This document shows positions 12,745-41,555 of a stretch of DNA of 64,000 nt, piece after piece (the stretch's first letter is position 1; every line of letters starts with the position of its first letter). The stretch lies in contig NZ_JQMS01000001.1 of the NCBI RefSeq assembly GCF_000744835.1, positions 2,542,001 through 2,606,000 on the forward strand. The letters are read 5' to 3'. The position numbers and the translations under genes are program-made. Origin of the DNA: Flavobacterium sp. 83. Its GTDB lineage: Bacteria > Bacteroidota > Bacteroidia > Flavobacteriales > Flavobacteriaceae. Below the pieces are notes generated by a model. That model did not search any database and was not told the origin of the DNA. It saw nothing but the letters and a program-made list of their open reading frames with translations.

Positions 12745-15700
12745 TTATTTTTCGGTTATGTTTGGTATAAATTTTTGAATTATATTCCACTCATTTTCGT
12801 AATTTTTATTATTAGTTTGTTTTCCATTTGCATTAAAACTTTCGTATGTTAACCTATTAATTTCGTCAGATATGTTTTTTGGAAATACTTTATATTCAAT
12901 ATTTTCAAAGCTTTGATAAATTACTTTATAGCCTTGCAAATGTAATTGTTCTCTATTTGAAATATTTTCGGTTTTATGAGCTTTAAAAATTATTTCTTTT
13001 CCTTTATTGAATTTTAACCCAATAATAGTATCATCTTCAATAAGTTTTAAATATTGAATTTTGGCGTTTGGATTTTTACCATTTGAATAATTATAATCAA
13101 TTCTTTTATCCAACAAAGTCTTAACATAAACTTTATTAATATGACCATTATCGTAGCATTGCAATAAATATCCGTTTCTATATTTTTTACTAATTGGTAA
13201 TGAATGTAAACAAAAATCTTCGGGGTTTTCTTGTAATTTATAAGTTCCGTTTTCAAAAAGATTAAAATATCTTAAAATTTTATCTTCTATGTTTTCATTT
13301 TCTTTTATTGTGAAAAGATTATTTTCAGTTTCAATAATTTCATCTTGCATTAAATCTATGAAAGATTTATGTTGATATGTTTTATTTGAATTTTCGATTG
13401 GTATTCTTGAATTATTTTCTTCCTCGTTTTCAAATTCATCATAATCAATTTCTTCAATAATATTTTCTTTTACTGATGGAATAAATAGTTTTACTTCGTC
13501 TTTTTTTGTGTTTTTAGTTATGAAATTAATCATTTTTTCTATTTCATTGCTTGGATTTCTTTTGTAAGCAGAATATAAAATTCTGTATACTTTCCAGCCA
13601 ACTCTTTCTAAAAATTCTTGTCTTTCAATGTCATAAGCAACATCTACAGGCAAAGAGTGGAAAGGGTCTCCATCGCATTCAATAGCAACTCTTTTACCAT
13701 TATTATGAACTACTAAATCGAGTTTGAAATTTACATATGATTGCTTATTTGTTTTATGGTTATAATAGGTTTCATCTTCTTTAACTTTGTATTGAGGCTC
13801 AATATAACTAAATCCTTTTCCAATTAATTCAATTGCAATATCGTATTCAAACCAACTATCAAATGGAGTAGGAGTATTATGTAAGTTTCTAATTTCATTA
13901 GAGTAATCCAATTTAAGTTCTCCTATTGGTTTTACTTCTTCATAGAAGAAATTTAAAATTCTATTTCTAAAATCTTTTGAACTTAAATGTTCGGTTTTAA
14001 CAGAATGAAATAAAATCATCTGTTCTTTTGCTCTACTTAATGCAACATTAATTTTTCGTGAGTCATCTCCATTTTCTTGAATAATTGCTCTAGGCTTTGC
14101 GTTCTCATTTTTATTTAATTTCTCAAAATCTAAAGCAACTCCAAGTGAAACCAGCATTACATCTCTTTCGTCTCCTTGAAATTTAGGAGAGTCCTCAATG
14201 ATTAATTTATGCTTATCAATTTTTTCTTTACCAAATTCATTTGCTAATTCTTCTTTTATATCTTTTAACTTTTCAGTATGTTTGGAAGAGCCTAAACTTA
14301 CAACACCAATTGTTTTATTGGAGTATTTATCATCTGTTAAAATGTTTTTTAAATAGGATTTAATTTGCTCAATTTCTCTGGAGACAATTTGTTCTTCGGT
14401 GAAAGCACCATCAATAAAAACAGGAATTTTTGGAGGAAGTCTATTCCCATTAATCTGTTTCAATGGTCGTAATGTGTTATTGTAAAAATTGAATTTTGAA
14501 AATTCAATTAGTTCTGGAACACAACGAAAATGTTCCTTTAATTGAAGGTTTGCGGTTCCTGCTATCATTTTAGCTAAAGAAAATAGACTATTATCGCTTT
14601 TTATATGAATAATTTCATCTTTTAAAAAACTTAAATGTTCATTTTTTATTGATATAAATGAGTCGCCATCTACTCCAGTTAAACTAGTGGGTGAAGTTTG
14701 CTTATCATCACCAACAATAATCATATTTTCAGTATAATAACCGAGTAATAAACTATTAAAATCTAATTGACTCGCTTCATCTACAATAATACAATCAAAA
14801 ATTTCGGGTTCACTACCAACTGAATTTAAAACATCATTAAATTTCATAACCCAACAAGAAAGTTTTTTACTAATTGCAATACTATTCTTTCTTGTTAAAA
14901 TTTGATATTTTGTTTTTTCCTTTAATGTTCTTTCGCTTTCACTTAAATTATATTTATATTGATTTAGAAGATTTATATAATCATTAATTTCATTTTCATC
15001 AAATTTATTTCTAAAATTATCTTTTGCTAAATCAAATAATATTTCACATTTAGTTTTATATATTTTTTCGTTAATTTTAGATAAAAATTCTTTAGTATTT
15101 TGAATATCAATAAATTCATTTGTAATTAAATAAGAATTTGCGTTAGCAAATTCAAAATTTTCTTTAGTTATAAATTCAAATGAAATTTCATTAATTTTTT
15201 CAAATGTTAAGGGTAAAACTACTTTTAAATAATCTATTGAATCAATAAATTGTTTTTCTAAATTCAGTTGGTTATTAATTTCTTCAAGTTTTACAAAAAG
15301 ATTTTCAAAAACATCCTTATCAGCAATTTCCTGAATCGGCAATAGATTTTCAAAGTCTTTTTTGATTTTTGAATTCTCAAGAATTAAACTTATTTCTGCT
15401 AAAGAATTATAAAGACTTTTAAATTGAAACTCAAATTTTTTCAATTTCTCGAAATCATCTTCACATTCAATTGCTTTTTCGGTTAATTCTTCTATCTCAA
15501 ACTTATCAATATTTACAAATTTTGAAAATTCTATTATATTAGTTTCAGATTGAATTTTTTTAACAATTTCATTATTTCGTTCTACTTTTGAAATAGTTTC
15601 TTTTAAAATTTCTAATTTTGATTCAATGTCAGCTTTATCATCATATTCAAATGAATAGCCACTGGTTTTTAATAAATTGAAATTTTTATTTATTAAACAA

Positions 15701-17232
15701 ATAGTCTCAATGAATTCCTTGAGTTTTGTAATGCTTCTTTTTGTATTTGTTTTTACTCCGTTAATTGTTATGTCTTCTAAATAAGAAACTTTCTTAAATT
15801 TAGATTCTAATCGTTTAAAAAAACCAACTTTCTCATCGCTAATAAATGAAAAATAAGTTTCAATATCTAAAAGATATTTTGTTTCATTATTAACTATGTC
15901 CGAAAATGTTACATTTGTTGTAATCTTTCCTATTTGAGGTATTTGTTTTATTTTATTTAATAAAACATCAATATCATTTTGTTTTTTTAAAACAATTTCT
16001 ACATTAGAATATGTGCTTAATGTTTCAATTATTTTAGACAAATCAATGCTTAAAAATTTTACTTTTAAATCTTCTTTTATTTCTAAATTATTACTTAATC
16101 TATCAATATTTTTTTTAATTTCTAGAAATTCAAAAAAATTATAAGTTTTTAATTGTTTGTAAATTTCGTTTAAGTCAAAATCAACAATTTGAATATAGTT
16201 TGTATTAAGATTTTGGTATTTTTTGTAATTGGATATTGAGTTTTTTAATTTATCAAAATCATTTAATTGCTCTCTTGATAAATTGTCTTTTATCCAATTC
16301 CATTCTTTAGAATCTTTCTTTTCAATTTTATCAACTATCTGATATGCTCGTAAATTTGAGAAAGTTTCATTAATAGTTATTTCATTATACTCTTTCTCTA
16401 AAGCATTTATTATTTTAGATTTCAAGTTTACATAATCACTTTTTAAATTGTTTAAATCTTTTATTTTTGATTCAATATTTAAATAGAAATTATCTGTTAA
16501 AATACTTGAGATTTTACTAATACTGTTTTCTAATGAAAATCTATTTTTGTTAGTTTCTAATTCAATTTTTGTAAAAATTAAATCGTCAAATGTTTCTGGA
16601 ATTTTGTCTAAAAGCGATTCAAGAGCTTTGTCTGTTTGAGCAGTTACTAAAACCCTTTTTCCTTGTGCTAGAAGTGAACATAAAATATTTACTATAGTAT
16701 GAGATTTTCCAGTGCCTGGTGGACCGGTAACTACCGTTAATCTGTTTTTTAAATAGTTCTCATAAATTTGTTTTTGTTCGTTGTTATATGGTAATGGAAA
16801 AAAAACAGAAAAATCTTCTTCAGCATTTAGTGAATTTGCATTTTCTTTGTGATTTTCATATAAATCATCAATGAAGTAATTAGATTTCGGATATGAATTA
16901 TTGTGTTCAATATCGGGATTCCTAATTAACAGATTTAAAAGTTTTGATTCATTTTCATTTTCTGTATTATAATCAATAATTGAATCTGTAAGTTTTTCGA
17001 AAAATCTTGGCTTTTTTATTTTGAAATTTATTGCAGGTGAAAATGAAATTTTAAAGAAATCTTCTTTATAAAAATCGCTTTGCGGTTTTAATATAGAATC
17101 TTGAAATTCAGAATTATCAGAAATTTTCTGAATTGATTTTGAAATTAATTTTTTCAAATCGTCTTCGTAGATGAAATCACAGCCAAATTCTAATACTTTA
17201 GATTCAAAACTATCAACGATATTACTTAAAAT
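12745..17232 (-). pseudogene. SF1 helicase with C-terminal Vsr-like nuclease, 3' part
   Basis: C-terminal part of a giant UvrD/Upf1-like helicase interrupted by an IS. The segment from the TTG at 17157 encodes 1470 aa. Walker A GPPGTGKS is at 145-152, then a long coiled-coil insertion (about 200-800), Walker B IIVDEASQLDF, GDDKQTSP, and motif VI NVALSRAKEQMILF. A C-terminal endonuclease follows (FKLDLVVHN then VAIECDGDPFHS, then RQEFLERVGWKVYRI), as in Vsr/MTES_1575-type nucleases. The helicase-Vsr order resembles Hhe-type and other helicase-nuclease defence proteins. Removing the IS and one target duplicate restores a single frame with the 5' part (1711 aa in total). Whether the 1470-aa piece is still made is unknown. 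Confidence 0.85.
17226..17232. repeat. Target site duplication TTAAAAT, left (IS copy 1)
   Basis: TTAAAAT abuts the left end of the IS and is repeated exactly at 18231-18237. Confidence 0.9.
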
Positions 17233-18885: not shown

Positions 18886-18956
18886 TAATTTTTAAATTTT
18901 GATATTTTCAAATATATAATTTTCTTTTCTACGGTTCGGTGCGGTAAGATTGTGCT

Positions 18957-18969
18957 TAACTTGTATATA
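18957..18969. other. Candidate attL core (TAACTTGTATATA)
   Basis: 13-bp sequence repeated exactly and in the same orientation at 49189-49201, about 240 bases beyond the integrase gene. It lies 72 bases upstream of the helicase start codon and just left of the first cargo gene. Confidence 0.55.
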
Positions 18970-19030
18970 TCTTCTTAACGCCTATAAGGAGTTGTATTTA
19001 TTGGTACTCTTTAATTTTTAAAACCATCTA

Positions 19031-19051
19031 GTACAACATAAGTACAACAAA
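19031..19051. repeat. Left GTACAACA double box (integrase arm site?)
   Basis: GTACAACAT, two bases, GTACAACAAA. A near-identical double box (GTACAACAT, three bases, GTACAACAAA) lies at 49057-49078 by the integrase. Such paired short repeats near each end are typical of arm-type recombinase sites. Confidence 0.5.
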
Positions 19052-19543
19052 TCAGAATACTTTTATTTGACTATAGATCCCAATATTATTAAGCTGTGCT
19101 TGGCGGTTCATCGTTTGATACTCTGCTAGCTTACCACAATAATATTGTTGGGTTGCTTTAGCATACCCATTTTGTAAAAGTAATTCATTTAAACATAATC
19201 CACTAGGCAAAATTACATACCCTAATTGTCTGTTCCAGTAGTCGTAATAGTTCTCCTGTTCCGTAATGATTGTTACAACCGTTTTAGGCGGTGCAACCGA
19301 CAAAACGAAGTGCAAGGATTGCAAACCAAATTGGAGTAATAATTGAGCAGGTAAACTGCTTTTTTCTTCGTCCTCTTTCATCTTCCTATTTAGTTTTACT
19401 TCTGGTGCATCCAAGCCATAAAGTCGGATTTCTTTTTTCATTTGAGTGAAACGATTGCAAATGATTATGCTATCTCCGTCAAGCACTTCTTCAATTTGCC
19501 AATGGGTTTCCACTATGTACGGTGCTTTTGCGTTGTATTGCAT
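19052..19543 (-). CDS. Staphylococcal nuclease-like (thermonuclease) protein
   Basis: SNase-fold endonuclease, 163 aa from MQYNAKAPYIVETHW. The Ca-binding and catalytic signature is clear: VLDGDSIIICNRF, then EIRLYGLDAPEVKL (the Arg and Glu of the active site), then YYDYWNRQLGYV with the second Arg. No signal peptide is visible, so it probably acts inside the cell or leaves by lysis. A longer frame to 19576 exists, but the chosen Met is closer to the domain. It is the leftmost gene of the proposed integrative element, divergent from the phage-like cassette. Confidence 0.88.
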   Translation of the reverse strand: MQYNAKAPYIVETHWQIEEVLDGDSIIICNRFTQMKKEIRLYGLDAPEVKLNRKMKEDEEKSSLPAQLLLQFGLQSLHFVLSVAPPKTVVTIITEQENYYDYWNRQLGYVILPSGLCLNELLLQNGYAKATQQYYCGKLAEYQTMNRQAQLNNIGIYSQIKVF

Positions 19544-19640
19544 TGATTTACAGTATTTTAAGTTATTGATAATCAAAGATAATCATTGAAATTTGTCATA
19601 TGAATTTTATCTAATTATTAATCCATTAAAACTTAAAAAA

Positions 19641-20444
19641 ATGGCAAGACAGAAAGGTGTTATCAAGTATGTTGGAACTCTTGGAGATATCCGACATTTT
19701 AAAATTAAAGGTCAAGAAGGCTACTTTGCCGGAATGGTTGGTGGTCCAACTGGTGACCAAGTACTCTCAGCTCCAGAGTTCGAAAGAACTCGTGAGAATA
19801 TGAACGAGTTTGGCGCTTGTGCCAAAGCCGGGAAATCGGTTCGTACTGGTTTATCTCAAGTGATGAAACAAATGGCGGACAGCCAAGTAACTGGAAGATT
19901 GACTTCTATTATGAAGAAAATCAACCTTGAAGACCAAACGGAAGCCAGAGGTTACCGTAAAATTGAAATCACAACACAAAGAAATTACTTAAAAGGTTTC
20001 GAGTTTGACAAAAACTCTTCTTTCAATGGTATTTTCAACGCTCCTTACTCATTAACTCATACAGTTGATAGAGAAAGCGGAGAGTTTGTTGTTGATGCTT
20101 TTAACCCAGCGAATTTGGTTAATGCTCCATCTGGTGCAACTCACTTTCGTTTGATTTCTTCACTTTCAGTAGTGAGTGATTTTGAGTATAATGCTACCAC
20201 AAACAGCTATGATCCTATGGATGCAGCATTGAATGAGGTAAACGATATTCAATACAGTCCTTTCTTGGATTTGTACGCTCCAGTTCCTGCCACTACAATT
20301 GTTGCAACTTTACCTGGTGGAGTTCTACCAACGGTAAACACCACAGTTTTGCAGTGTATCGGAATTGAGTTCTACCAACAAGTGGGACCAAATTACTACT
20401 TGTTCTCCAGTGGTAATTGCTTGAAAGTTGAGGATGCTTTTTAG
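19641..20444 (+). CDS. Conserved Bacteroidetes mobile-element protein (MARQKG type)
   Basis: 267-aa protein starting MARQKGVIKYVGTLGDIRHF, a start I recognise from many Bacteroidetes genomes next to DUF5675 genes, but with no assigned function. The N-terminal third is basic and helical (RTRENMNEFGACAKAGKSVR then TGLSQVMKQMAD), and the rest looks beta-rich. No signal peptide or membrane segment. The ATG at 19641 is chosen over an upstream TTG-type frame because MARQKG is the family start. It leads a four-gene + strand cassette and is followed by a strong terminator-like hairpin. Confidence 0.75.
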   Translation: MARQKGVIKYVGTLGDIRHFKIKGQEGYFAGMVGGPTGDQVLSAPEFERTRENMNEFGACAKAGKSVRTGLSQVMKQMADSQVTGRLTSIMKKINLEDQTEARGYRKIEITTQRNYLKGFEFDKNSSFNGIFNAPYSLTHTVDRESGEFVVDAFNPANLVNAPSGATHFRLISSLSVVSDFEYNATTNSYDPMDAALNEVNDIQYSPFLDLYAPVPATTIVATLPGGVLPTVNTTVLQCIGIEFYQQVGPNYYLFSSGNCLKVEDAF

Positions 20445-20456
20445 AAAAACCTTCCG

Positions 20457-20487
20457 AAAATCCCTCACCAAAAGTGAGGGATTTTTT
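20457..20487 (+). terminator. Hairpin terminator after the MARQKG gene
   Basis: Stem AAATCCCTCAC / GTGAGGGATTT with a short loop and a T6 run. It separates the first cassette gene from DUF5675, which starts 26 bases later. Confidence 0.85.
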
Positions 20488-20512
20488 GTTTAATCTCAAA
20501 TCTATCAAGACT

Positions 20513-20965
20513 ATGGAAAGTAAAATAATAAGAGTAGCCCAGGGCAAAGAAAGCACATTGAGCCAATTGTACATTAACGGAATATTTCAATGCTATTTGT
20601 TAGAGGATAAAATAAGAGAAGTAAAAATAGCTTCTCAAACTGCCATTCCAAAAGGTGTTTTTAATTTGAAGTTGAACACTCACGGAGCTAAAAATGTGGA
20701 TTACAAAAAAGCATTTGGAAAGCTTCACGAAGGAATGATTGAAATTACTGGTTTGCCAAACTTCAGCTTTGTTTATATCCATACCGGAAATACTATCAAA
20801 GAAACTGCCGGGTGTCCGCTTTGTGGTTTTGGTTTCCAATTCGTTGATGGCAATTTTCAAGTTACTCAAAGTGTTGCAGCTTACAAAATGATTTATCCAA
20901 AATTGGTAGCACTGGCAAAAGTTGAAAACAATGTAATAACTATTGAAAATAATTTTCAATTCTAA
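20513..20965 (+). CDS. DUF5675 family protein
   Basis: 150-aa protein of the DUF5675 family, found in phage and mobile-element contexts of Bacteroidetes. Blocks seen: QGKESTLSQLYINGIFQCYL then LEDKIREVK, AIPKGVFNLKLNTHG, LHEGMIEITGLPNFSFVYIH and GNTIKETAGCPLCGF. The conserved His and Cys (HTGNT, AGCPLC) could be an enzyme site, and a cell-wall or lysis role is often suspected from neighbours, but no activity is established to my knowledge. The ATG at 20513 is chosen; the longer frame crosses the terminator upstream. Confidence 0.85.
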   Translation: MESKIIRVAQGKESTLSQLYINGIFQCYLLEDKIREVKIASQTAIPKGVFNLKLNTHGAKNVDYKKAFGKLHEGMIEITGLPNFSFVYIHTGNTIKETAGCPLCGFGFQFVDGNFQVTQSVAAYKMIYPKLVALAKVENNVITIENNFQF

Positions 20966-20977
20966 AAAGGCCAAAAA

Positions 20978-21241
20978 ATGGAAAATATCAACATCATCGC
21001 TACACTTTTTGGAACGTTAATCACCTTGTTACTCTCGATTGTGGCTTATTTTATCAAGCAATTACACACTGATTTCAAGAGTATGGAGAAAGATTTGATT
21101 GAAGTAAAAACGATGGCTTTAATCATCAAAACAGAGTTCAAAAGTGGTAACGATTTATTGAACCAGAAAGTAGAATACATCGAAAAAAGAGTACACAATT
21201 TAGAATTATCAATTTTTAAAAATCCAGATTATGAAAAATAA
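20978..21241 (+). CDS. Small one-TM coiled-coil protein (XhlA-like?)
   Basis: 87 aa. One membrane segment near the N-terminus (IATLFGTLITLLLSIVAYFI) is followed by a charged helix with heptad character (TDFKSMEKDLIEVKTMALII then LNQKVEYIEKRVHNLELSIF). This resembles the small haemolysin/XhlA-like accessory proteins that sit next to holins in phages. The 3' end overlaps the next gene by 11 bases. Function inferred only from architecture and position. Confidence 0.65.
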   Translation: MENINIIATLFGTLITLLLSIVAYFIKQLHTDFKSMEKDLIEVKTMALIIKTEFKSGNDLLNQKVEYIEKRVHNLELSIFKNPDYEK

Positions 21242-21473
21242 CAAAATGAATTTAGTAGAAAGAACCTTGGCACCAACCCCAAAATGGTTTAAAATTCTTC
21301 GCACTGTCGGAATTGCTTTGGCAAGTGTTGGCGGAATTATCATCGCTTCGCCTATTGCCTTACCTGTTGGATTGGTTTCGGCTGCTGGTTACTTGGTTCT
21401 GGGTGGTAGTATTATTTCAGTAGTTTCTCAAACTGCTGTAAAATCGGAAGAAGAACCGAAAATAAATCCTTAA
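21231..21473 (+). CDS. Holin-like two-TM protein
   Basis: 80 aa with two hydrophobic segments (ILRTVGIALASVGGIIIASP and LVSAAGYLVLGGSIISVVSQ) separated by a short turn, a basic start, and an acidic tail (KSEEEPKINP). The start may be the ATG at 21231 or the ATG at 21246 (MNLVERTLAPTPKWF), which matches similar proteins I recall. The size and topology fit a class II-like holin, and it lies directly after DUF5675 and the one-TM protein. No experimental support is known. Confidence 0.65.
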   Translation: MKNNKMNLVERTLAPTPKWFKILRTVGIALASVGGIIIASPIALPVGLVSAAGYLVLGGSIISVVSQTAVKSEEEPKINP

Positions 21474-21494
21474 AATCGGTTGAAAACAACGTTG

Positions 21495-21522
21495 AAAGCT
21501 CCATTTATTGGAGCTTTTTTTG
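21495..21522 (+). terminator. Terminator of the phage-like cassette
   Basis: Stem AAAGCTCCA / TGGAGCTTT with a 4-base loop and a T7 run, 22 bases after the holin-like stop codon. Confidence 0.9.
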
Positions 21523-21627
21523 TTTTTAGCAGTCAATAAAAGTAGATTGCTTTGCTTTTCTTCGATTTATTTAAGTGGTGCAATCATATTGCACTTATGC
21601 GTTGGTTTGCTTGGGAATAAGGTGCAA

Positions 21628-21660
21628 TCAATCCTAGTCCAGTTGGACCAGGATTGTTTT
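21628..21660 (+). terminator. Second hairpin with T-rich tail
   Basis: Stem CAATCCTAGTCC / GGACCAGGATTG with a 4-base loop, then TTTTATTTT on the + strand. A backup terminator that meets the convergent DUF6943 gene. Confidence 0.6.
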
Positions 21661-22081
21661 ATTTTCTACAATAACGGTATAAAATGGCTCGACGGATGTC
21701 ATTTATGAGCATCATATCCTCTTTGTATTGTTTTTCTTTTTTCTCCAGAAGTTTGAGAGCTGCAACATTTTTTTGGTGCTGCTCGTGCTCCACCATCATT
21801 AAACTGGCTTGTGGATTGAATTGTTTTTTGAAATCTGGAAGACGCAAAAACGAAATAACCGAACCTACTAAATACTGATGCCAGAATTTTGTTTGCCATA
21901 AACTATATGCAATGAAAAAAAGGCTTTCGCAGTCCTCTTCGTTTTGAAAAATGATAACAAAACTGTTAGTAAATGGCGTTTTTTGTGGCTTTCCGCTGTT
22001 CATCCCTTTGTTAAGTATGAATAAATGGGGTTTTGTGTAAACGGTGTCTTTTCGGTGGGTCTTGATGATGAAATTTAGCAT
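21659..22081 (-). CDS. DUF6943 family protein
   Basis: 140-aa protein that I recognise as the DUF6943 type common on Bacteroidetes mobile DNA. Blocks: IIKTHRKDTVYTKPHLFILN, KGMNSGKP, NSFVIIFQNEEDC, SLWQTKFWHQYLVGSVISFL, and a lysine-rich C-terminal coiled coil (LKLLEKKEKQYKEDMMLIND). No enzymatic motif. Its position between the phage-like cassette and the hairpin array suggests it belongs to the same module. Function unknown. Confidence 0.75.
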   Translation of the reverse strand: MLNFIIKTHRKDTVYTKPHLFILNKGMNSGKPQKTPFTNSFVIIFQNEEDCESLFFIAYSLWQTKFWHQYLVGSVISFLRLPDFKKQFNPQASLMMVEHEQHQKNVAALKLLEKKEKQYKEDMMLINDIRRAILYRYCRK

Positions 22082-22225
22082 AACATTCGGCTTTAAAAAT
22101 GGGTTAGATTTTCAATTTTCCACAGGGTTTCGGTTGAAAGACCAATGTGCTTCGCTACGCTCCGCCCATTAAATTTTTCAAAAGAAAAAAAAGGAAAAAA
22201 AAGAAAGCCATTCGTTCAAGTGGAA

Positions 22226-22375
22226 GGTTTCAAAAAAGCAAGTTTTTTTGATAAAATACTACCCGATACATCATCGGAAGTGTGGACGTGAAGGCGGAAT
22301 TGAATGTTTATGCGAACCGTTATGGGTGGAGATTTTATCAAAAACCGGAGGCTTGAACTTGCTTTTTTGTAAACC
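22226..22375 (+). repeat. Hairpin 1
   Basis: Left arm GGTTTCAAAAAAGCAAGT plus TTTTTTGATAAAAT (from 22226) pairs with ATTTTATCAAAAA plus ACTTGCTTTTTTG (to 22375); the right arm carries a 12-base bulge. Purine/pyrimidine-rich flanks (22185-22205 and 22391-22420) could extend the stem. Confidence 0.7.
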
Positions 22376-22497
22376 TGGAACTTACCTTTGCTCTCTTTTT
22401 TTTTATTTTTTGTTTTGATTTCATTAACCAAACGTCATCGTATAATCGGAAGCTTTGCTAAGGAATGGGAGTTGATTTGGAATAGGATGGTTTTCGG

Positions 22498-22580
22498 AAA
22501 GTGTGTGGATTTTTAAAACAGAAAAAAGAAATATAAAATCCATTCCAATTATTTTTCTGTTTTAAAAATCCATACTCTTT
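22498..22580 (+). repeat. Hairpin 2
   Basis: Arms 22498-22526 and 22552-22580 match as reverse complements at 27 of 29 positions. One mismatch is G.U and one is U.U. The loop is 25 bases. Start AAAGTGTGTGG and end CCATACTCTTT parallel hairpin 4. Confidence 0.85.
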
Positions 22581-22591
22581 CTTGGATTTGA

Positions 22592-22673
22592 TTTTGTGGG
22601 TATTGAAAATCACTTTACAGAGGGTTTTAATTTTATAGTACAGGTTTTCAAGTGATTTTCAATACTTACAAAA
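22592..22673 (+). repeat. Hairpin 3
   Basis: Arms beginning TTTTGTGGGTATTG (left, 22592-22614) and ending CAATACTTACAAAA (right, from 22650) match at all but two positions, and both exceptions are G.U on the + strand. The loop is about 35 bases. Followed by ACAATG as in hairpin 5. Confidence 0.85.
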
Positions 22674-22716
22674 ACAATGAAAAAATAATACCGAGTGCGA
22701 TGGGGCAGTAGCGCAG

Positions 22717-22908
22717 GCAAGTGTGTGGTTTTTTATTTGCTTACTAGGGTGTTTTTGATTGCTTTAGTGGAAAAGCTGGTGCCATTGACTTGAAAGAAAG
22801 ACAATGCTTCGGGCTGGTCAACTTTATATTTAGTAACGGTATGGCATCGGCTTTTCCGCTGAAGCAATTACTTCGGGTTTTCTGGCAAATAAAAAACCAC
22901 ACTCTTGC
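22717..22908 (+). repeat. Hairpin 4, two nested stems
   Basis: Outer arms 22717-22740 and 22885-22908 match at 23 of 24 positions (one U.U). Inner arms 22758-22785 and 22841-22868 match at 24 of 28, and all four exceptions are G.U pairs on the + strand. The outer stem ends match hairpin 2. Confidence 0.88.
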
Positions 22909-22921
22909 TGGCTTCTCTTGA

Positions 22922-23004
22922 TTTTGTGGGTGTTGCAAATTGCTTATTCCTATGTCGTTAATGTTAGAAATGGAGGTTATAAGCAATTTGTGACACTCAC
23001 AAAA
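22922..23004 (+). repeat. Hairpin 5
   Basis: Arms 22922-22947 and 22979-23004 match at 23 of 26 positions; the three exceptions are all G.U on the + strand. The loop is 31 bases. Paralogue of hairpin 3 (shared TTTTGTGGGT start and CACAAAAACAATG end). Confidence 0.88.
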
Positions 23005-23120
23005 ACAATGCAAATACTTACCGCTTTAAACATCAAGTTGCTAAAAACAGTTACCGCAAACGTTCTTGAAAGTAGGTAGTTAGGAAAAATTTTCTATGAA
23101 ATTGCGAAGGTTCTTAAAGA

Positions 23121-23195
23121 CAGTGGCGAAGGACGGCTTTTTTTATTGCAGGCCGGTGCGAGGAAGCAATGAAAAAAGCTGTCCTAGAGCCACTG
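23121..23195 (+). repeat. Hairpin 6
   Basis: Arms 23121-23149 (CAGTGGC start) and 23166-23195 (GCCACTG end) pair through CAGTGGC, a small internal loop, AGGAC-GCTTTTTT and ATTGC, with two G.U exceptions. The loop is 16 bases. Confidence 0.8.
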
Positions 23196-23216
23196 GCAAG
23201 CGCGTTGGGTGTGGCG

Positions 23217-23315
23217 GCTGTTTTACATAAATGATATTATAGCTTCATTGCAAAAACCAAAAAAACAATATAAAAGCTTTGTAATGAACTATAATACTCA
23301 ATTATGTAACACAGC
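23217..23315 (+). repeat. Hairpin 7
   Basis: Arms 23217-23251 (GCTGTTTTACATAA start) and 23281-23315 (TTATGTAACACAGC end) pair over about 34 positions with two single-base bulges, two mismatches and one G.U. Confidence 0.75.
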
Positions 23316-23321
23316 TTGGGG

Positions 23322-23391
23322 AAAAAAATTACTGGCGCAAGTTGCGAAGCGTACGTGTTTTTGTTCCAAAAACTGTGACAGTAATTTTTTT
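23322..23391 (+). repeat. Hairpin 8
   Basis: Perfect 13-bp arms AAAAAAATTACTG (23322-23334) and CAGTAATTTTTTT (23379-23391), weakly extended outward. The 44-base loop is richer in GC. Confidence 0.65.
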
Positions 23392-23480
23392 TGGAGCGTT
23401 GGCAAAGGAGTGGCAACTGAAATGTAAATCGTCCTTTTACCACCAAACTTTTAGGGGTTTTCTTTTAAATACAAAGTTGA

Positions 23481-24116
23481 TTAGAAAAGAGAATTTTGAT
23501 TTAGGTTTTTAGCAACCAAATTTACTTCGTAAGGAAAAGCAAACTCTTGTATTGGTTGATTTTCTAACCATTTAATTTCGTCTTCTTGTTTTAATATTAT
23601 TGGCATCCGCTTTTTAATATTGTGTATTTCTGCCATTAAAGGATTGGCTTCTGTGGTAACAATAGTATAGGTTTTTTTAATTTCTCCGGTAATTGTATCT
23701 GTCCATTCTGAATATAATCCTGCGAATGCAAACAGATCATCATTAGCAATTCCAATTTCAAATTTGTTTTTATTTTTTCCTTTACTATCTAGCCATTGCC
23801 ATTCATAGAAACCATTAGCAATAACAAGACAACGTTTGTTTACAGAATTTCTGAAAGAAGGTTTTTCGTCAACTGTTTCTATTCTTGCATTAAGAGTGAA
23901 TTTTTTGATTTCATCATCTTTGGACCACGAAGGAATTAAACCCCAATTATAATGTGTAATGATTTTAGGACTTTCATCTATTATTATTGGAGATAATGGA
24001 TAATCAAAACCATTGATGTTTTCTTGAGGTTTGAATATAGCAATATTGTCAATTTTAGCATCAAATCTATTTTCAACTTCAATAGCTTCTTTGGATTGTT
24101 TGGAATGGAAACACAT
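23481..24116 (-). CDS. SRAP (HMCES/YedK) family protein
   Basis: SOS response-associated peptidase-fold protein that, in known members, forms a covalent bond between Cys2 and abasic sites in single-stranded DNA. Cys2 is present (MCFHSK). Other family residues: NARIETVDEKPSFRNSVNKR with the conserved Asn, Arg and Glu, CLVIANGFYEWQW, and the catalytic His in AEIHNIKKRMPIIL. Length 211 aa, a typical single domain. It begins ten bases after the stop of the GHKL-nuclease gene, so both are one transcript. This suggests a DNA-repair or DNA-protection role coupled to that ATPase. Confidence 0.93.
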   Translation of the reverse strand: MCFHSKQSKEAIEVENRFDAKIDNIAIFKPQENINGFDYPLSPIIIDESPKIITHYNWGLIPSWSKDDEIKKFTLNARIETVDEKPSFRNSVNKRCLVIANGFYEWQWLDSKGKNKNKFEIGIANDDLFAFAGLYSEWTDTITGEIKKTYTIVTTEANPLMAEIHNIKKRMPIILKQEDEIKWLENQPIQEFAFPYEVNLVAKNLNQNSLF

Positions 24117-24126
24117 AATTTATTAA

Positions 24127-26151
24127 TTATTTAAAAAGTTTATCAAAAAAAGGACTATGCCTATTATTTGAAAAATTTAATAATTGTCTAAAAGTCAATA
24201 CCTCAATATGCATATTTAGTTCAGGTTCAATCTTATAATAAGTACCAAAAGGCGTAGTTTTCCAACCTTTACCTGTGTTATATTCGATTAATTGATTTGG
24301 AATTACATCTAAAATGATAAATCCAAATTTTGGAGTTGTTGTTCTAATAACGACTTGGTTTCCTTTGTAGTTTTTTTTGTTAGGCTGATAAAGAAATTCG
24401 TCAAAATATGGTTCAATTAATTCGGAATATTGCCATCTATAATCACTTTTTCTTTTTTGATGAGCTATATCACCAGGTCTTTTAAATTCAAATATTACCA
24501 TTGAATTAACTTCTCCACTATTTTTGTCACCAAAACTAATAGGATTATCAAACATTTGTGGATTATTAACCAAGACTAAATCAAGTTCTTTTCTGCTATT
24601 TTTTTGAGAATATGATGTTATTGATTTATCAGAAGCTATAAACTTATATGTTATAAATCTTTCATCTAAAAGCCAAAGATTATGATTTTCATAATCTAAT
24701 TCATTATTTGTTAAACCTAAAGGAAAAATTAAATTGTGAACATCCTCTTCAAGCTTATAGTTTCCATTTTCATCAGCATCTAAAAACTTGTCAAACAAAT
24801 CCAAAATTGCTTTTCTTCTTGTCATATAATCTGCTAAACTATCTACGTCATATGAGGTTTTCTCTTTTATGTTTTCAATAATTTGACTAATTACCTCTTC
24901 GTTTATTGATTTATTATTGATGAACCTTTGAATGTTTTCTTCAACATTTTTTCTAGCAGTGTATGATATTTTATAAAGATGTTCTTCAAGTTTATCTTCT
25001 GTTAAATTAGGTGGAATTGATTTTAATACATCAGGATTTTTTAAAAAACTGTTATATCGTGGTGCCTTATGAGAAATGTATGCTTTTACTTCACTAACAT
25101 TTTTCTCTTTAGCTTCTCTAACAAAATTTTCATATTCTAATTCTATAATTTCAGATAGTTTACTTTCAATATCCTGAAATGTTACAATATTGGAATTTTT
25201 AAAAATTAAATTCTCATCTTCCTTTGGTATTTTAAAACCATTTCGTGTTTTATAAACATTTTGATTTAAATAATCTGAAACTAAATAAATATCTAAAAAG
25301 TAGTAAGTATTATTTTGTATTAAAGGATAGCAAAAAATGCTATTAATATTTTTTAAATTTCTAGCATTTCCTACAGTTCTGTTATTAGCACAATAATATA
25401 GATAATTGTTTTTACGGTTACCTTCTTTAGGTGTTTTCGTAATATATAGTTTGAATTTATAATCTTCTAATTCAAAATTCCTCTCATTTTCTTTAGAAAC
25501 TTTTGCAAATAATTCATTAATTATAACACCGGAATTATCTTCCTTATCAATAATGGAAATATTAGGTAAAGAATTATTTAAATAATAAATAAAGCAATGT
25601 TGCATTATGGTTTCTGCAATTTCCTGAACCGATAGAGCTGATTTTTCTACTATAAATTCATTATTACAATTATTAATTTCAACGATGGTTTTATATTCTT
25701 CTTTGGTATTTTCGTCTAAACTTATCTCTTCAATTTCATTATTTGTTGTGAATTTAAATTTTCTATTAATCCACTTTTGATTTTCAAAATAATTACTATT
25801 TACATTATATTCTTCAAATGCAGCTAATACAGTAAATCTACCTACGCCTTTACAGCCAAATTCAATATTAGATTGTGAAAATGGAGTTTCAAATGATTTG
25901 TAATTTTTAGTATTAAAACCAATACCATTATCAATAATTTTAAATGTTTTGATAGTCTTTAGATTTTCAAAGTTTAATTCTCTTGGGTAAGCACCCCTTT
26001 CAATTTGAATTTGAATTTTCCTTTGATCTACTGGTAAACTTGATTGTTGTAGGCTAATTATTGAATTCACAACACATTCTAGTAAAGGTAAAAGAACATC
26101 ATCTTGCGACAGTTCAACAGTTTCAACAATATTTTTTACTGGGACAATCAT
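24127..26151 (-). CDS. GHKL ATPase fused to PD-(D/E)XK-like nuclease domain
   Basis: 674-aa protein. The N-terminal GHKL ATPase (Hsp90/MutL/MORC fold) shows the N box with E25 and N29 (LLECVVNSI), G1 D74-NGIGF, and G2 GCKGVGRFT (from about residue 99). The middle (250-500) is helical and unassigned. The C-terminal region carries D524 in ELDLVLV and E555-F-K557 in VIFEFKRPG, the spacing of a PD-(D/E)XK nuclease, reminiscent of Shedu-type domains. I know no named system with this exact pair. It is first in a two-gene unit with the SRAP gene and has its own promoter with a palindrome. The nuclease call is motif-based. Confidence 0.8.
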   Translation of the reverse strand: MIVPVKNIVETVELSQDDVLLPLLECVVNSIISLQQSSLPVDQRKIQIQIERGAYPRELNFENLKTIKTFKIIDNGIGFNTKNYKSFETPFSQSNIEFGCKGVGRFTVLAAFEEYNVNSNYFENQKWINRKFKFTTNNEIEEISLDENTKEEYKTIVEINNCNNEFIVEKSALSVQEIAETIMQHCFIYYLNNSLPNISIIDKEDNSGVIINELFAKVSKENERNFELEDYKFKLYITKTPKEGNRKNNYLYYCANNRTVGNARNLKNINSIFCYPLIQNNTYYFLDIYLVSDYLNQNVYKTRNGFKIPKEDENLIFKNSNIVTFQDIESKLSEIIELEYENFVREAKEKNVSEVKAYISHKAPRYNSFLKNPDVLKSIPPNLTEDKLEEHLYKISYTARKNVEENIQRFINNKSINEEVISQIIENIKEKTSYDVDSLADYMTRRKAILDLFDKFLDADENGNYKLEEDVHNLIFPLGLTNNELDYENHNLWLLDERFITYKFIASDKSITSYSQKNSRKELDLVLVNNPQMFDNPISFGDKNSGEVNSMVIFEFKRPGDIAHQKRKSDYRWQYSELIEPYFDEFLYQPNKKNYKGNQVVIRTTTPKFGFIILDVIPNQLIEYNTGKGWKTTPFGTYYKIEPELNMHIEVLTFRQLLNFSNNRHSPFFDKLFK

Positions 26152-26188
26152 TTTGATTTTTGTATTTATTATTTCAATAATTCAATTT

Positions 26189-26214
26189 CAAATATACACA
26201 ACTTATTATAAGTT
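26189..26214 (-). promoter_or_regulatory. Promoter and palindrome before the GHKL-SRAP unit
   Basis: The minus strand carries TATATTTG (26189-26196), an exact -7 box. Directly upstream is a perfect 15-base palindrome AACTTATTATAAGTT (26200-26214), which overlaps the end of umuC. It is placed where a repressor would block the promoter. Confidence 0.55.
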
Positions 26215-27465
26215 AATATTTATGATTTCATTAATTCTAGTAGTATAGCACTTTGATAGTTTTTCTTGTTTCATTCTCCATTGTCTGCCGACTGATTGAG
26301 TGGCAAACTTTACTTTGTTAGTACCGTAACTTTTATTCATTTTATCAATAACGCTCATTAATGGTTGGTGTTTTGGATTTGATATATTAAATAAAGATAA
26401 TTGAGTTTCGTTGTTTGGAGTTAATCCCATTACTATAACACCTGCTTTTTTATAATGAAATCCTTCTTTGAAAATGGCTTTTAGTCCTATTTGAGCGTAA
26501 TGGTTCAGTTCTATTGTTGAATTGGTTGGGAAGTCAGTATTTATTATGATGTTTCTTGAATATTGTGGTTGGTCTTTACGAAAATAGTTAGTATGTACAA
26601 AAACCATAATCATATTGCAATGGCTGTTTTGCTTTCTTAATTTTTCTGAACAAGAAGCTGTGAAAGTTGATACTCTTTCTGAAATATCTTCCAATTTTGT
26701 AAATGGTTTTTCAAATGATCGTGTTGTAGCAATCATCTTTTTACTTTTTGGCTGCTCTAAATCTAAAGTTGGTTTACCTTGTAATTCGTGCTTTAACCTT
26801 AATCCCACTACTGCCATTTCTTTACGAACCCATTCATCAGATAGTAACGTAAATTGATATGCGTTGAAGATATTTTTGGCTTGTAATCTTTTTGCGTGCT
26901 TTCTTCCGATACCCCAAACATCTTCTATTTTAGTCCATTTAAGGGCTTTAATTCTTTTTTCTTCATTGTCTATTGTGTAAACACTTTGGGTTCTCTCAGG
27001 GTACTTCTTTGCTATTTTATTAGCTACTTTGGCTAATGCTTTGGTTGGTGCAAAACCTATACTTACTGGAATGCCCGTGCCTTTTGTAACTGTTCGCTGC
27101 ATATCTAAACCGATATTTTGCAAATCAAATAACTCAAATCCTTTGAATTTTAGGAAAGCTTCGTCAATACTATAAATTTCAATTTCTGGTGAATACCTCG
27201 TTAGAATATTCATAACCCTTGAACTCATATCACCATATAAAGCATAATTTGAAGAATAAACAAATACATTATTGGCTTCAAAGATATTTTTATATTCAAA
27301 TGCTGGAGCACCCATTGGAATACCTAATGCTTTTGCTTCGTTTGAACGTGCAATAACACAACCATCATTATTAGAAAGTATAACCACTGGTTTATTTCTT
27401 AAATGAGGTTCAAATACTCTTTGACAAGAAGCATAGAAATTATTACAATCAACTAATGCAAACAT
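26206..27465 (-). CDS. umuC: Translesion DNA polymerase V subunit UmuC
   Basis: Y-family polymerase, 419 aa from MFALVDCNNFYASCQRVFEP. The catalytic acidic residues are in ALVDCNNFYASC and in YSIDEAFLKF; the finger/palm block is PVVILSNNDGCVIARSNEAK. The helix-hairpin-helix region ALKWTKIEDVWGIGRKHAKR and the C-terminal little-finger domain follow. The ATG overlaps the umuD stop (TAATG), so translation is coupled. Longer upstream frames overlap umuD and are not needed. Cargo umuDC is common on mobile DNA and supports mutagenic repair. Confidence 0.95.
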   Translation of the reverse strand: MFALVDCNNFYASCQRVFEPHLRNKPVVILSNNDGCVIARSNEAKALGIPMGAPAFEYKNIFEANNVFVYSSNYALYGDMSSRVMNILTRYSPEIEIYSIDEAFLKFKGFELFDLQNIGLDMQRTVTKGTGIPVSIGFAPTKALAKVANKIAKKYPERTQSVYTIDNEEKRIKALKWTKIEDVWGIGRKHAKRLQAKNIFNAYQFTLLSDEWVRKEMAVVGLRLKHELQGKPTLDLEQPKSKKMIATTRSFEKPFTKLEDISERVSTFTASCSEKLRKQNSHCNMIMVFVHTNYFRKDQPQYSRNIIINTDFPTNSTIELNHYAQIGLKAIFKEGFHYKKAGVIVMGLTPNNETQLSLFNISNPKHQPLMSVIDKMNKSYGTNKVKFATQSVGRQWRMKQEKLSKCYTTRINEIININL

Positions 27466-27914
27466 TAAAAATATTTTATGGAATTTATTACTATACCCCA
27501 AATAACAAAATCATTTTCGGGAGTAACTTTTATAGGCTTATAGTCTTCGTTTTCAGCTATTAGCCAAAAAATGTTTTCTTCTTTTTTGATACGTTTAATT
27601 GTAAACTCACCATCAATTTGACAGATTGCAATTCTTCCGTCTTGTGGCTCCAAACTTTTATCAATGACTAATAAATCACCATCAAAAATTCCAACATTTT
27701 TCATTGAATGACCTTTTACCTTTGCAAAGAAAGTAGTGTCTTTATGTTTAATTATATGTTTATTTAAATCAATTGACAACTCTATAAAATCATCTGCTGG
27801 AGATGGAAATCCTGCACTAATTCCTGTGTCAAATAAAGGCAATTGTAATTCCGTGGAATAATCCGGGATGTAAAATTCGAATGTGTTTGTATTGTGTAGG
27901 TTTCTCAATTTCAT
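27465..27914 (-). CDS. umuD: UmuD/LexA-type S24 peptidase
   Basis: 149-aa UmuD-like protein. The self-cleavage site is Ala-Gly in TGISAGFPSPADD, the catalytic Ser is in KGHSMKN, and the Lys in FTIKRIKK. An N-terminal arm of about 35 residues precedes the cleavage site, and no helix-turn-helix is present, so it is UmuD rather than LexA. UmuD' is the active partner of UmuC. A symmetric element sits inside its promoter. Confidence 0.92.
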   Translation of the reverse strand: MKLRNLHNTNTFEFYIPDYSTELQLPLFDTGISAGFPSPADDFIELSIDLNKHIIKHKDTTFFAKVKGHSMKNVGIFDGDLLVIDKSLEPQDGRIAICQIDGEFTIKRIKKEENIFWLIAENEDYKPIKVTPENDFVIWGIVINSIKYF

Positions 27915-27918
27915 TTAA

Positions 27919-27954
27919 CAAAATTAGAAAACTAAAGTTTCATTTAGTGCAAAA
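27919..27954 (-). promoter_or_regulatory. umuDC promoter with palindromic operator
   Basis: On the minus strand: TTTTG at 27950-27954, a 23-base spacer, and TAATTTTG at 27919-27926. Inside the spacer is the inverted repeat ACTAAA-6-TTTAGT (27931-27948). This is a likely repressor site; the ATG follows only four bases after the -7 box. Confidence 0.6.
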
Positions 27955-28060
27955 CGGTGTAAAATAGTTATTAACGAAATGAAGCAAACAAATACGTGAG
28001 TTTAGGAATACTTGGACTAAACGAGGGTTTTGTGCAGATGAATGAGGTAATGACTATTTA

Positions 28061-30182: not shown

Positions 30183-30995
30183 TTATTTTTTTAAATATTT
30201 TGTAACGTATGGATTGCCAATATTTATTAATTCATCTTTATATTTTTCAACAAAGGTTGCAATTTCGTGAACAGATCTTTTCTTTTGAAAATTTACAGTA
30301 TGTCTTTCGTCAATGTTTGAATGACAAAGAGTGCATAAACATTGTAGATTTTCTCGTTTGTTAATCAGTTTATTACCATTACGATGATGAACTTGAATAA
30401 ATCTTTGGTCAAATTTATTTTCGATTTTTATTGAGCAATTATTACAGGTAAATTCATTTTCAATTCTAAATTTCTTGCTTATTTCTTGCCAATCTTTTAC
30501 ATAACCAAACATATCTAGTTCGGCATCATTAATTGGCTCATCATCTTGTATATCGAGCAAATCGAAGAACCCTTGTGTATTTTTGTAATCAGTAATTCTA
30601 GCAGCATTTCTGCAATAATTACATAAACTAAGAATTACATCTTTATATATTTTTGAAGTTCCTCTTTGTTGAACATCAACTATATTTGAATTGCTCCAAT
30701 AATAATGGCCGTGAAATCTATTTTGGTTTTGTTGTTGAATAATTGTTTGACAATTTGAAATATGGAATTTAGGAAAATCATACTGTTCAACATCCGCTAC
30801 TTTTATATACATATAGCCCTTATGTTCAACACCATTGATTTTTAAATAAATCCCATCTTCCTTAAAAGTAATATTACCCTTCTTTTCTTCCTCTGAAAAG
30901 TCTTTTCGAACAATTTCAAAACGACTTTCTGTGACTTCTGGAAAATTTAAGAAATCAAGTTTTTGTGATAATTTTTTAAAGTCATACAGTTTCAT
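30183..30995 (-). CDS. HNH endonuclease, ZorE-like position
   Basis: 270-aa protein with a C-terminal HNH nuclease: C184xxC187, then VHHRNGNKL (H203, H204), RENLQCLCTLCHSNID (N216, C221xxC224) and R/H at 231-232. An extra C125xxC128 may bind metal. The N-terminal half (1-120) is unassigned and could be the target-binding part. Its ATG overlaps the stop of the ZorB-like gene by four bases (ATGA), so the three genes are translated together. ZorA-ZorB-HNH is the gene order of type II Zorya, where ZorE is the HNH effector. Assignment is by domain and order. Confidence 0.82.
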   Translation of the reverse strand: MKLYDFKKLSQKLDFLNFPEVTESRFEIVRKDFSEEEKKGNITFKEDGIYLKINGVEHKGYMYIKVADVEQYDFPKFHISNCQTIIQQQNQNRFHGHYYWSNSNIVDVQQRGTSKIYKDVILSLCNYCRNAARITDYKNTQGFFDLLDIQDDEPINDAELDMFGYVKDWQEISKKFRIENEFTCNNCSIKIENKFDQRFIQVHHRNGNKLINKRENLQCLCTLCHSNIDERHTVNFQKKRSVHEIATFVEKYKDELINIGNPYVTKYLKK

Positions 30996-31708
30996 TGTTT
31001 CATTTGTTTTAAAACTTCATCAACTAATATTTCACTAGTAGTTACAATCTTAAACTCAACTCTTCTTGATTTTACAATGTCAATTTTATTCTTAGAGATA
31101 AAAGTTAGTTTATTATTGTTATCTAAGGTTCTGCCATAAGACAGTCCATTTGCAGTAATCCAAAACTGTAATACTTGCTCTTTTTCTGGCGAAAGGTTTT
31201 TGTAATAAGGAAGTCTTCTAAGAAACTGAAGTACATTTCTTGACCGATCTTGCGAAAGTTTAATATTATCAATGTAAGGGTCATCTGTTTCGTGAATTGG
31301 AATATTATTCGTGTGCCCTTCAATTCTAATTTCTGCTATTTTATCTTTATACTTATTTTGTAATACAATTGAAAAATATTTAGGAAAAAAAGAAGTTAAT
31401 ATTTGTTTGAATTTTGGTGTTATATCAGATTTTCCATCATCAAATAGTACTTGAGGGTTTGTGAATTTAATAGATAAATCTTTATCTAACTCTAAATCCC
31501 ATTTTCTGAAATCATTTTTGAATTCTTCATTTAAGTCTTTGTATAAGCTCTCCTTTGTTTCTTTGTATTCCTTGAAGATTTTGTCTTGTTCATTTTTTTG
31601 GAATTGAACTAAACCCATATATGCAATTGAAATAAAAAGAAAAACAACCATTAAAACAGTCATTAAATCTGCATAAGGGATCCAGAAATTATCTTTTTTA
31701 TTAGCCAT
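30992..31708 (-). CDS. ZorB-like MotB/OmpA-domain protein
   Basis: 238 aa. A single N-terminal membrane helix (about 15-34) contains the channel Asp D14 at its edge (PYADLMTVLMVVFLFISI). An extracytoplasmic linker follows, then an OmpA-like peptidoglycan-binding domain (about 85-235) with IEGHTNN (129-135) and IKLSQDRSRNVL (149-160). This is the MotB/ZorB architecture, which pairs with a MotA-like protein to form a proton-driven membrane motor. The ATG overlaps the ZorA-like stop by one base (TAATG). Confidence 0.86.
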   Translation of the reverse strand: MANKKDNFWIPYADLMTVLMVVFLFISIAYMGLVQFQKNEQDKIFKEYKETKESLYKDLNEEFKNDFRKWDLELDKDLSIKFTNPQVLFDDGKSDITPKFKQILTSFFPKYFSIVLQNKYKDKIAEIRIEGHTNNIPIHETDDPYIDNIKLSQDRSRNVLQFLRRLPYYKNLSPEKEQVLQFWITANGLSYGRTLDNNNKLTFISKNKIDIVKSRRVEFKIVTTSEILVDEVLKQMKQ

Positions 31709-33138: not shown

Positions 33139-33194
33139 TTTAAAATATTTTTATTAATAGTAAGGTTTTTGTATGATTAAAATCAAGAAATTAA

Positions 33195-36176: not shown

Positions 36177-36185
36177 AGTGAACTA

Positions 36186-38084: not shown

Positions 38085-38118
38085 AGTATTATAATTATGA
38101 AATGTAAAATTTATGATT

Positions 38119-41552: not shown

Positions 41553-41555
41553 AAG

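Follow-up and report, generated by a model that had tools for sequence, protein, structure and literature searches.

Few large structured RNAs are known from bacteria. GOLLD and ROOL are encoded in phages and prophages, often near tRNA islands; OLE and HEARO are large structured RNAs that work with a protein encoded nearby. In integrons, which have the IntI integrase, conserved folded attC sites with their end boxes stand at the ends of exchangeable cargo; in type III toxin-antitoxin systems, RNA repeats lie upstream of, and co-directional with, the gene of a toxin with the ToxN-like endoribonuclease fold. Here we analyse a 64,000-nucleotide stretch of the genome of Flavobacterium sp. 83 (contig NZ_JQMS01000001.1, positions 2,542,001 to 2,606,000; "the window"), in which an array of long hairpins lies beside a gene of the DUF6943 family within an island-like module. 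We propose that the array is probably a large structured RNA of the + strand that, together with the protein encoded by the divergent DUF6943 gene, acts as a ribonucleoprotein.

The part of PMC12286853 on which we draw names both OLE and HEARO among large structured RNAs and gives the function of GOLLD and ROOL as still not known. Like GOLLD and ROOL as described there, the array would be a large, elaborately folded non-coding RNA tied to mobile DNA, and it adjoins a lysis-like cassette; unlike them, it has neither an Rfam nor a phage-record match and no tRNA gene in the window, has a protein gene beside every full copy checked, and consists of long hairpins set one after another, unlike the complex fold given for them in that part of the source (PMC12286853). 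The proposed RNA resembles OLE and HEARO in being large, structured and near a protein gene, but it has no Rfam match, is divergent from that gene, and no link in sequence or fold was seen between DUF6943 and their protein partners. PMC7567579, in its relevant part, describes a transcribed space of ~0.8-1 kb without an open reading frame (ORF) near the lysis genes of phage ICP1, and an abundant non-coding transcript of the satellite island PLE; likened by description, without sequence comparison, the array is also ~1 kb without a protein gene beside a lysis-like cassette, but it has conserved, covarying hairpins and sits in Flavobacteriaceae chromosomes.

Nine strong inverted repeats lie in 22082-23449, compared with a mean of 0.035 and a maximum of 1 in 200 first-order Markov resamplings; the original prediction, made from the letters of the window, had counted at least eight. 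A separate inverted-repeat scan of 21500-24500 gave seven inverted pairs with arms 81-96% complementary (82-96% in the earlier estimate), and the units of hairpins 2+3 and 4+5, which had been called paralogous, do share direct repeats (28 nucleotides at 86% between hairpins 3 and 5; 20 nucleotides at 90% between hairpins 2 and 4). The conserved unit runs from the start of the DUF6943 gene (22081) to ~23449, and the order and spacing of its hairpins are conserved in 61 aligned arrays: the window, and those left of the best 80 DUF6943 loci after removal of 11 with less than 1300 nucleotides upstream and, from the remaining 69, of four without a match to the array 3' end and five outside 1100-1500 nucleotides. 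The array is non-coding. Gap runs between the window and the 60 homologues are multiples of three in 153 of 1922 cases, and the ORFs of at least 60 amino acids that lie wholly or mostly within hairpins 2-9 measure 89, 72 and 69 amino acids, in line with the earlier remark that the region holds no credible gene. A coding function was considered and rejected on these gap lengths and on an ORF of at least 75 amino acids over hairpins 7-8, which is listed in just 11 of 101 mapped sequences (not all independent: at least nine of the loci L037-L056 are the same places as loci among L107-L186).

Covariation was measured in 34 of 45 diverse arrays; alignment A4 dropped six of the 34, in which hairpin 7 deviates. 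Across 214 consensus pairs, 96.8% of cells were paired, compared with a mean of 88.7% (standard deviation 0.2, maximum 89.3%) in 200 shuffles, and 592 were double-change cells, compared with a mean of 183 (standard deviation 12, maximum 216), relatedness among the arrays inflating this shuffle test; with partners slid as a control, which by construction favours the predicted structure, 49-56% were paired. In hairpin 7, 98.3% of cells were paired (91.0% in shuffles) and 50 were double changes (12.3 in shuffles), and none of 500 shuffles reached either value. Conservation of its loop (0.85) about equals that of its stem (0.86), whereas in the six other hairpins measured the apical part falls below the stem. 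It is the effect size, together with presence in separate hairpins, that makes the covariation persuasive. Compensatory changes among homologues, set beforehand as a test, are thus found, and the array shows what marks a large structured non-coding RNA: covariation above shuffled and slid controls, and no coding pattern.

The + strand is the folded strand. Folding energy alone does not pick it, because both strands fold strongly: as RNA, 22450-23448 of the window gives -357.6 kcal/mol on the + strand (z -16, 20 shuffles) and -277.1 kcal/mol on the - strand (z -14). The G.U and A.C counts decide. The consensus energy of the 61 arrays is -129.7 kcal/mol on + and -51.5 kcal/mol on -, but G.U pairing is permitted in that prediction, and the strands were therefore compared in two neutral counts: inverted repeats of the 61 arrays, located by a search that treats G.T and A.C alike as mismatches, hold 329 G.T, 16 A.C and 264 other odd pairs, G.T exceeding A.C in 59 arrays with two ties and none reversed; helices common to the + and - folds hold 280 G.U, 24 A.C and 241 other (44, 15 and 71 distinct states). 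In the arms of the window hairpins we count 12 G.T, no A.C and 4 other, close to the roughly 13 G.T and no A.C reported before. The central claim of the original prediction, that a + strand nucleic acid is folded under selection, is therefore upheld by compensatory changes, by an order conserved in dozens of homologues and by the G.U bias.

G.T is tolerated in RNA and DNA alike, and the pair bias is thus silent on RNA versus single-stranded DNA. For Flavobacterium promoters, the relevant part of PMC6847099 gives the consensus TTTG / TANNTTTG, later revised to TAHHTTTG. The motif TAnnTTT[GA] occurs at one column in 54 of the 61 arrays, other columns reaching at most five on the + strand and at most four on the - strand; TTG lies upstream of it in 32 arrays, and the full TTG..TAnnTTTG is present in 30. 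In 60 block-shuffled alignments the full motif had a mean best column of 6.8 and none reached 32; the best column of the short motif held at least 50 rows in ten runs, and in one run when an upstream TT[GT] was included. A conserved motif that reads on the + strand into the array suggests an RNA, without being proof of a promoter. Because this promoter-like motif at 22359-22390 reads +, the RNA likely starts near 22396 and would include hairpins 2-9, with a span of about 22396-23449.

The DUF6943 gene is the constant neighbour of the array. A DNA search of 100 whole genomes close to that of the window found full or nearly full relatives of the array at 68-89% identity, three of them in one genome, and the similarity continues into the DUF6943 gene in all 16 full or nearly full loci fetched. 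From the protein side, a scan of named genomes gave at least 551 DUF6943 relatives among 595 stretches; the best 80 of these, hence the closest of them, are nearly all from Flavobacterium or related Flavobacteriaceae. Where these loci have at least 1300 nucleotides upstream, a strong inverted repeat is present there in 67 of 69 and the array 3' end in 65 of 69; on the other side of the gene, any strong inverted repeat occurs in just 4 of 80. A covariance-model search, which the original prediction had called for, used a model of hairpin 7 and gave matches in 48 of 199 sampled Flavobacterium genomes; the same model matched 7 of 299 sampled family genomes: three strongly, the window's own genome among them, and four at 24-27 bits without an adjoining module gene, which we take as chance. 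In all 32 strong loci checked (29 from the genus search, for which 80 matches are listed, and three from the family search), DUF6943 lies ~1 kb away and divergent; 13 of these loci had helped build the model, six others are among the best 80 DUF6943 loci and 13 were new to both. The distances of DUF6943 and array correlate over 60 loci (Spearman 0.47, reached by none of 300 permutations; adjacency accounts for part of this), and those of P250, the family of the next long gene past the small ones, are uncorrelated with either (-0.03 with the array over 53 loci, 0.04 with DUF6943). DUF6943 and the array thus travel as one unit, and the cassette alongside is exchanged.

The link is one-way: every full array checked has DUF6943, and the array is missing from half of the genomes with DUF6943. 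Of 60 sampled genomes, 16 bear DUF6943, and eight of the 16 show just hairpin 1 and/or the array 3' end; in several genomes hairpin 1 alone stands beside DUF6943 (DNA matches within query 20-291). On the stretches examined, no full array was found near ten DUF6943 genes whose proteins are 27-47% identical to that of the window or near four on viral contigs. It thus seems that hairpin 1 accompanies DUF6943 across a wider range and that hairpins 2-9 go with one branch of this family. The window's own genome has one other array match, a degenerate copy (G000:C1:3486458-3490112, L056) that holds the equivalent of 18945-21599, array fragments and a boundary motif, without DUF6943. In another locus (L185:2531-4530) the hairpin 2+3 unit stands in three tandem copies with a period of about 319 nucleotides, with CRISPR repeats at 1-425.

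We infer that a promoter immediately 3' of hairpin 1 would drive + strand transcription of an RNA of ~1.05-1.2 kb; that the DUF6943 protein would bind those bases that stay constant among the repeated hairpins; and that the pair would serve upkeep of the island, most likely through recognition of its boundary motif, a short folded sequence. This motif follows the array within 150 nucleotides in 38 of 51 sequences and also follows cargo: where an array 3' end is present (79 sequences), 51 have a boundary motif on the same strand (not found in 28), at a modal distance of 27 nucleotides and further than 150 in 13, with 4517 nucleotides in the window. A bolder version, which we regard as a long shot, is a giant RNA whose repeated docking hairpins serve a target-recognition-type protein and which, in most copies, extends into a copy of the cargo-end motif, the ribonucleoprotein guiding cassette insertion or exchange there; if true, this would be an RNA-directed cassette platform of Bacteroidota.

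The main rival holds that the + strand is folded single-stranded DNA, exposed as the island replicates or moves, whose hairpins and boundary motif are read by a recombinase or replication protein, as in attC sites or single-strand origins. This would fit the facts that one strand folds in both array and boundary motif, each showing covariation, that the boundary motif is sharp-edged and follows cargo whose families occur in varied combinations, and that a tyrosine recombinase is present in 17 of the 101 mapped sequences; yet in most copies the mapped stretch shows no recombinase, the promoter-like motif reads into the array, no single-strand site is known to be as long as this, and a loop as conserved as the stem, as in hairpin 7 though not in the six other hairpins measured, exceeds what a simple hairpin signal would require. 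We consider the single-stranded DNA explanation rather unlikely.

The array lies directly upstream of DUF6943, and hairpin 1 alone is retained beside that gene in several genomes, as would be expected if the array controlled it in cis, as an operator, cruciform or long leader in the DNA. A leader, however, would be read from the - strand, whereas the + fold is the one selected; a double-stranded site would give no strand bias; and hairpins 2-9 reach about 1.3 kb upstream in conserved order. Control by the whole array is therefore quite improbable, and hairpin 1 by itself may well act in cis on DUF6943. That the hairpins are selfish, self-spreading palindromic repeats gathered here by chance is hardly credible: the paralogy of units 2+3 and 4+5 and the three copies of the 2+3 unit in L185 would suit it, but the 61 aligned arrays share the order and spacing of their hairpins, with compensatory changes, the own genome has only the one degenerate further match, beside the same cassette, and the array is linked to DUF6943 in all 32 loci checked. 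The ribonucleoprotein reading remains the one we favour. The layout of a type III toxin-antitoxin system is not found here, the folded strand and promoter-like motif being divergent from DUF6943.

The array does not fall into an RNA family of Rfam; the original prediction, too, could not place it. No Rfam family matched the window at gathering score, nor any of five homologous loci except for the CRISPR repeats in L185. With the threshold relaxed to E 5, 22080-23480 gave 56 Rfam matches, mostly microRNA precursors (best E 5.7e-5), all far below gathering scores and none of them to the GOLLD, ROOL or HEARO models; the boundary motif gave one match up to E 5 (E 2.6). Linkage to tRNA was rejected, with no tRNA gene in the window and one in just 4 of 52 homologous loci scanned. 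A phage or plasmid element was likewise rejected: the array DNA matched none of 50,697 phage records or 72,556 plasmid records, a protein search with DUF6943 found none in phages or plasmids, and an exact hairpin-1 pattern has no match in IMG/VR. The phage giant-RNA type put forward in the original prediction is consequently not supported, while its folded + strand under selection and its cassette neighbour stand; DUF6943, the boundary motif and the cargo had been missed. IMG/VR holds four distant DUF6943 matches, one boundary-motif match and one P250 match; its contig L227 carries a P250 relative with DUF6943 facing it, and the array is represented there by a hairpin-1-like match alone. We found neither the element described nor a paper on DUF6943 among open-licence PMC papers, which points to a large RNA undescribed in that literature. 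Its protein neighbour is constant, a promoter is likely, homologues have been aligned by the dozen and a covariance model built, and cultured strains carry the array, among them the type strain of Flavobacterium aquatile with two copies (L128 and L129).

The predicted DUF6943 model (predicted local distance difference test, pLDDT, 92.9) bears a weak likeness to restriction-enzyme target-recognition domains. Its first four Foldseek matches (E 0.054-0.30) and its first six matches by Z (7.3-6.0, values that may mean just a common arrangement) are restriction-modification chains, mostly specificity subunits; no solved chain reached E 0.001 or better, and no sequence match was found either. Like HsdS (PDB 1yf2, 1ydx and 3okg; PacII and BsaXI chains), DUF6943 is predicted to have a target-recognition-like domain and, after it, a long helix; unlike HsdS, DUF6943 is a single, half-sized protein of 140 amino acids with no methylase or nuclease gene recurring on the map, and the similarity is weak. 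ToxN is not named among the 50 matches listed in either structural search.

Table 1. Features of the island-like module in the window (window positions).
Feature	Position	Strand	Remarks
Whole island-like module	18957..28052	.	Sharp left edge to end of boundary motif; long colinear matches in L037, L039, L042, L051
SNase-family nuclease gene	19052..19576	-	PF00565, E 1.5e-11; left part of module in this copy type; cluster in 21/101
P250 gene (family of 250-270 amino acids)	19641..20444	+	No Pfam or NCBIfam match; low-confidence model, beta-rich C-terminal half
DUF5675 gene, lysis-like cassette	20474..20965	+	PF18925, E 1.3e-25
Small protein, 87 amino acids	20978..21241	+	N terminus hydrophobic by eye; cluster in 21/101 sequences
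Small protein, 80 amino acids	21231..21473	+	Hydrophobic by eye; cluster in 47/101 sequences
DUF6943 gene	21659..22081	-	PF22105, E 4.7e-56; 140 amino acids; divergent from proposed RNA
Hairpin 1	22186..22411	+	Between DUF6943 start and proposed RNA start; also retained next to DUF6943 in genomes without the remainder
Promoter-like motif TTG ... TACCTTTG	22359..22390	+	3' edge of hairpin 1; Flavobacterium-type consensus
Proposed structured RNA, hairpins 2 to 9	22396..23449	+	Start inferred from promoter-like motif; 3' end predicted
Hairpin 2	22497..22581	+	28 pairs with 96% paired cells and 163 double changes (53.9 in shuffles)
Hairpin 3	22588..22677	+	Clear in window; core recurs in hairpin 5; absent as helix from 34-array consensus fold
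Hairpin 4	22716..22909	+	Helix of 34-array consensus fold; inner stem 22758-22868 counted as hairpin 6
Hairpin 5	22918..23008	+	Paralogue of hairpin 3; in 34-array consensus fold
Hairpin 7	23121..23195	+	Loop conserved too; basis of covariance model R1
Hairpin 8	23216..23316	+	Helix of 34-array consensus fold
Hairpin 9	23321..23392	+	Inner part exchanged among homologues, complementarity retained
Cargo: SRAP, 674-amino-acid protein without Pfam match, UmuC-like and S24-peptidase (UmuD-like) genes	23481..27914	-	
Boundary motif (RE), 85 nucleotides	27968..28052	+	Covarying stem; 63 matches in 54/101 sequences

The module (Table 1) recurs among the 101 mapped sequences in one order: an SNase (21) or tyrosine recombinase (17) gene, P250 (89), DUF5675 (62 and 21, in two clusters) and small hydrophobic proteins; facing these comes DUF6943 (98), with the array and the boundary motif after it. 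The lysis-like cassette noted in the original prediction is present as DUF5675 with two small proteins. The 87-amino-acid protein has weak PHROG matches (best E 3e-4) of unknown function and no match in IMG/VR; P250 was not found in the search of phage records. The name DUF6266, for which no open-licence PMC paper was found, was not confirmed for P250 and is not used here. The model of P250 is of low quality (mean pLDDT 61) and its matches are weak and of mixed kinds, so we make no claim that it is a virion protein. The left edge is sharp in 16 aligned rows, two places among them represented twice; in these SNase-type copies the first shared bases (18957-18960) are (T/C)AAC in 16 of 16 rows and the preceding flanks differ, a possible target preference. 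No empty site was found, the right flank giving just partial matches in 10 of 39 relatives.

The boundary motif has sharp edges, flanks nearly invariant in the alignment, and covarying columns 31-63, 36-58 and 38-56 (states of 31-63: C-G 13, A-T 23, T-A 11). Like integron attC sites, it is a conserved folded sequence of ~85 nucleotides at the ends of exchangeable cargo; unlike them, it has no inverted attC end boxes by eye, and its constant neighbour is DUF6943. Because array and boundary motif mostly adjoin elsewhere, the window genes at 23481-27914 (SRAP, the 674-amino-acid protein, UmuC-like and S24-peptidase) are best read, from their arrangement, as cargo between the two. Other copies have cargo and then a second boundary motif, and cargo families recur in varied combinations, with genes that by eye resemble defence and metal-efflux genes; since modules carry such cargo, the function of the array bears on how these islands are kept and exchanged. 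In the cargo of four loci (L045, L111, L142 and L155), an ORF of 93-94 amino acids starts, by eye, like the first RuvC motif of Cas9 and adjoins a gene with a weak UPF0489 match. The module in the window adjoins defence genes, as Zorya type II ZorA/ZorB-like genes, then type III restriction and methylase genes and a UvrD-like helicase lie at 30992-43523; at 12745-17157 lies a helicase of 1470 amino acids with an MTES-type nuclease domain and PADLOC matches to PDC-S37 and Hhe.
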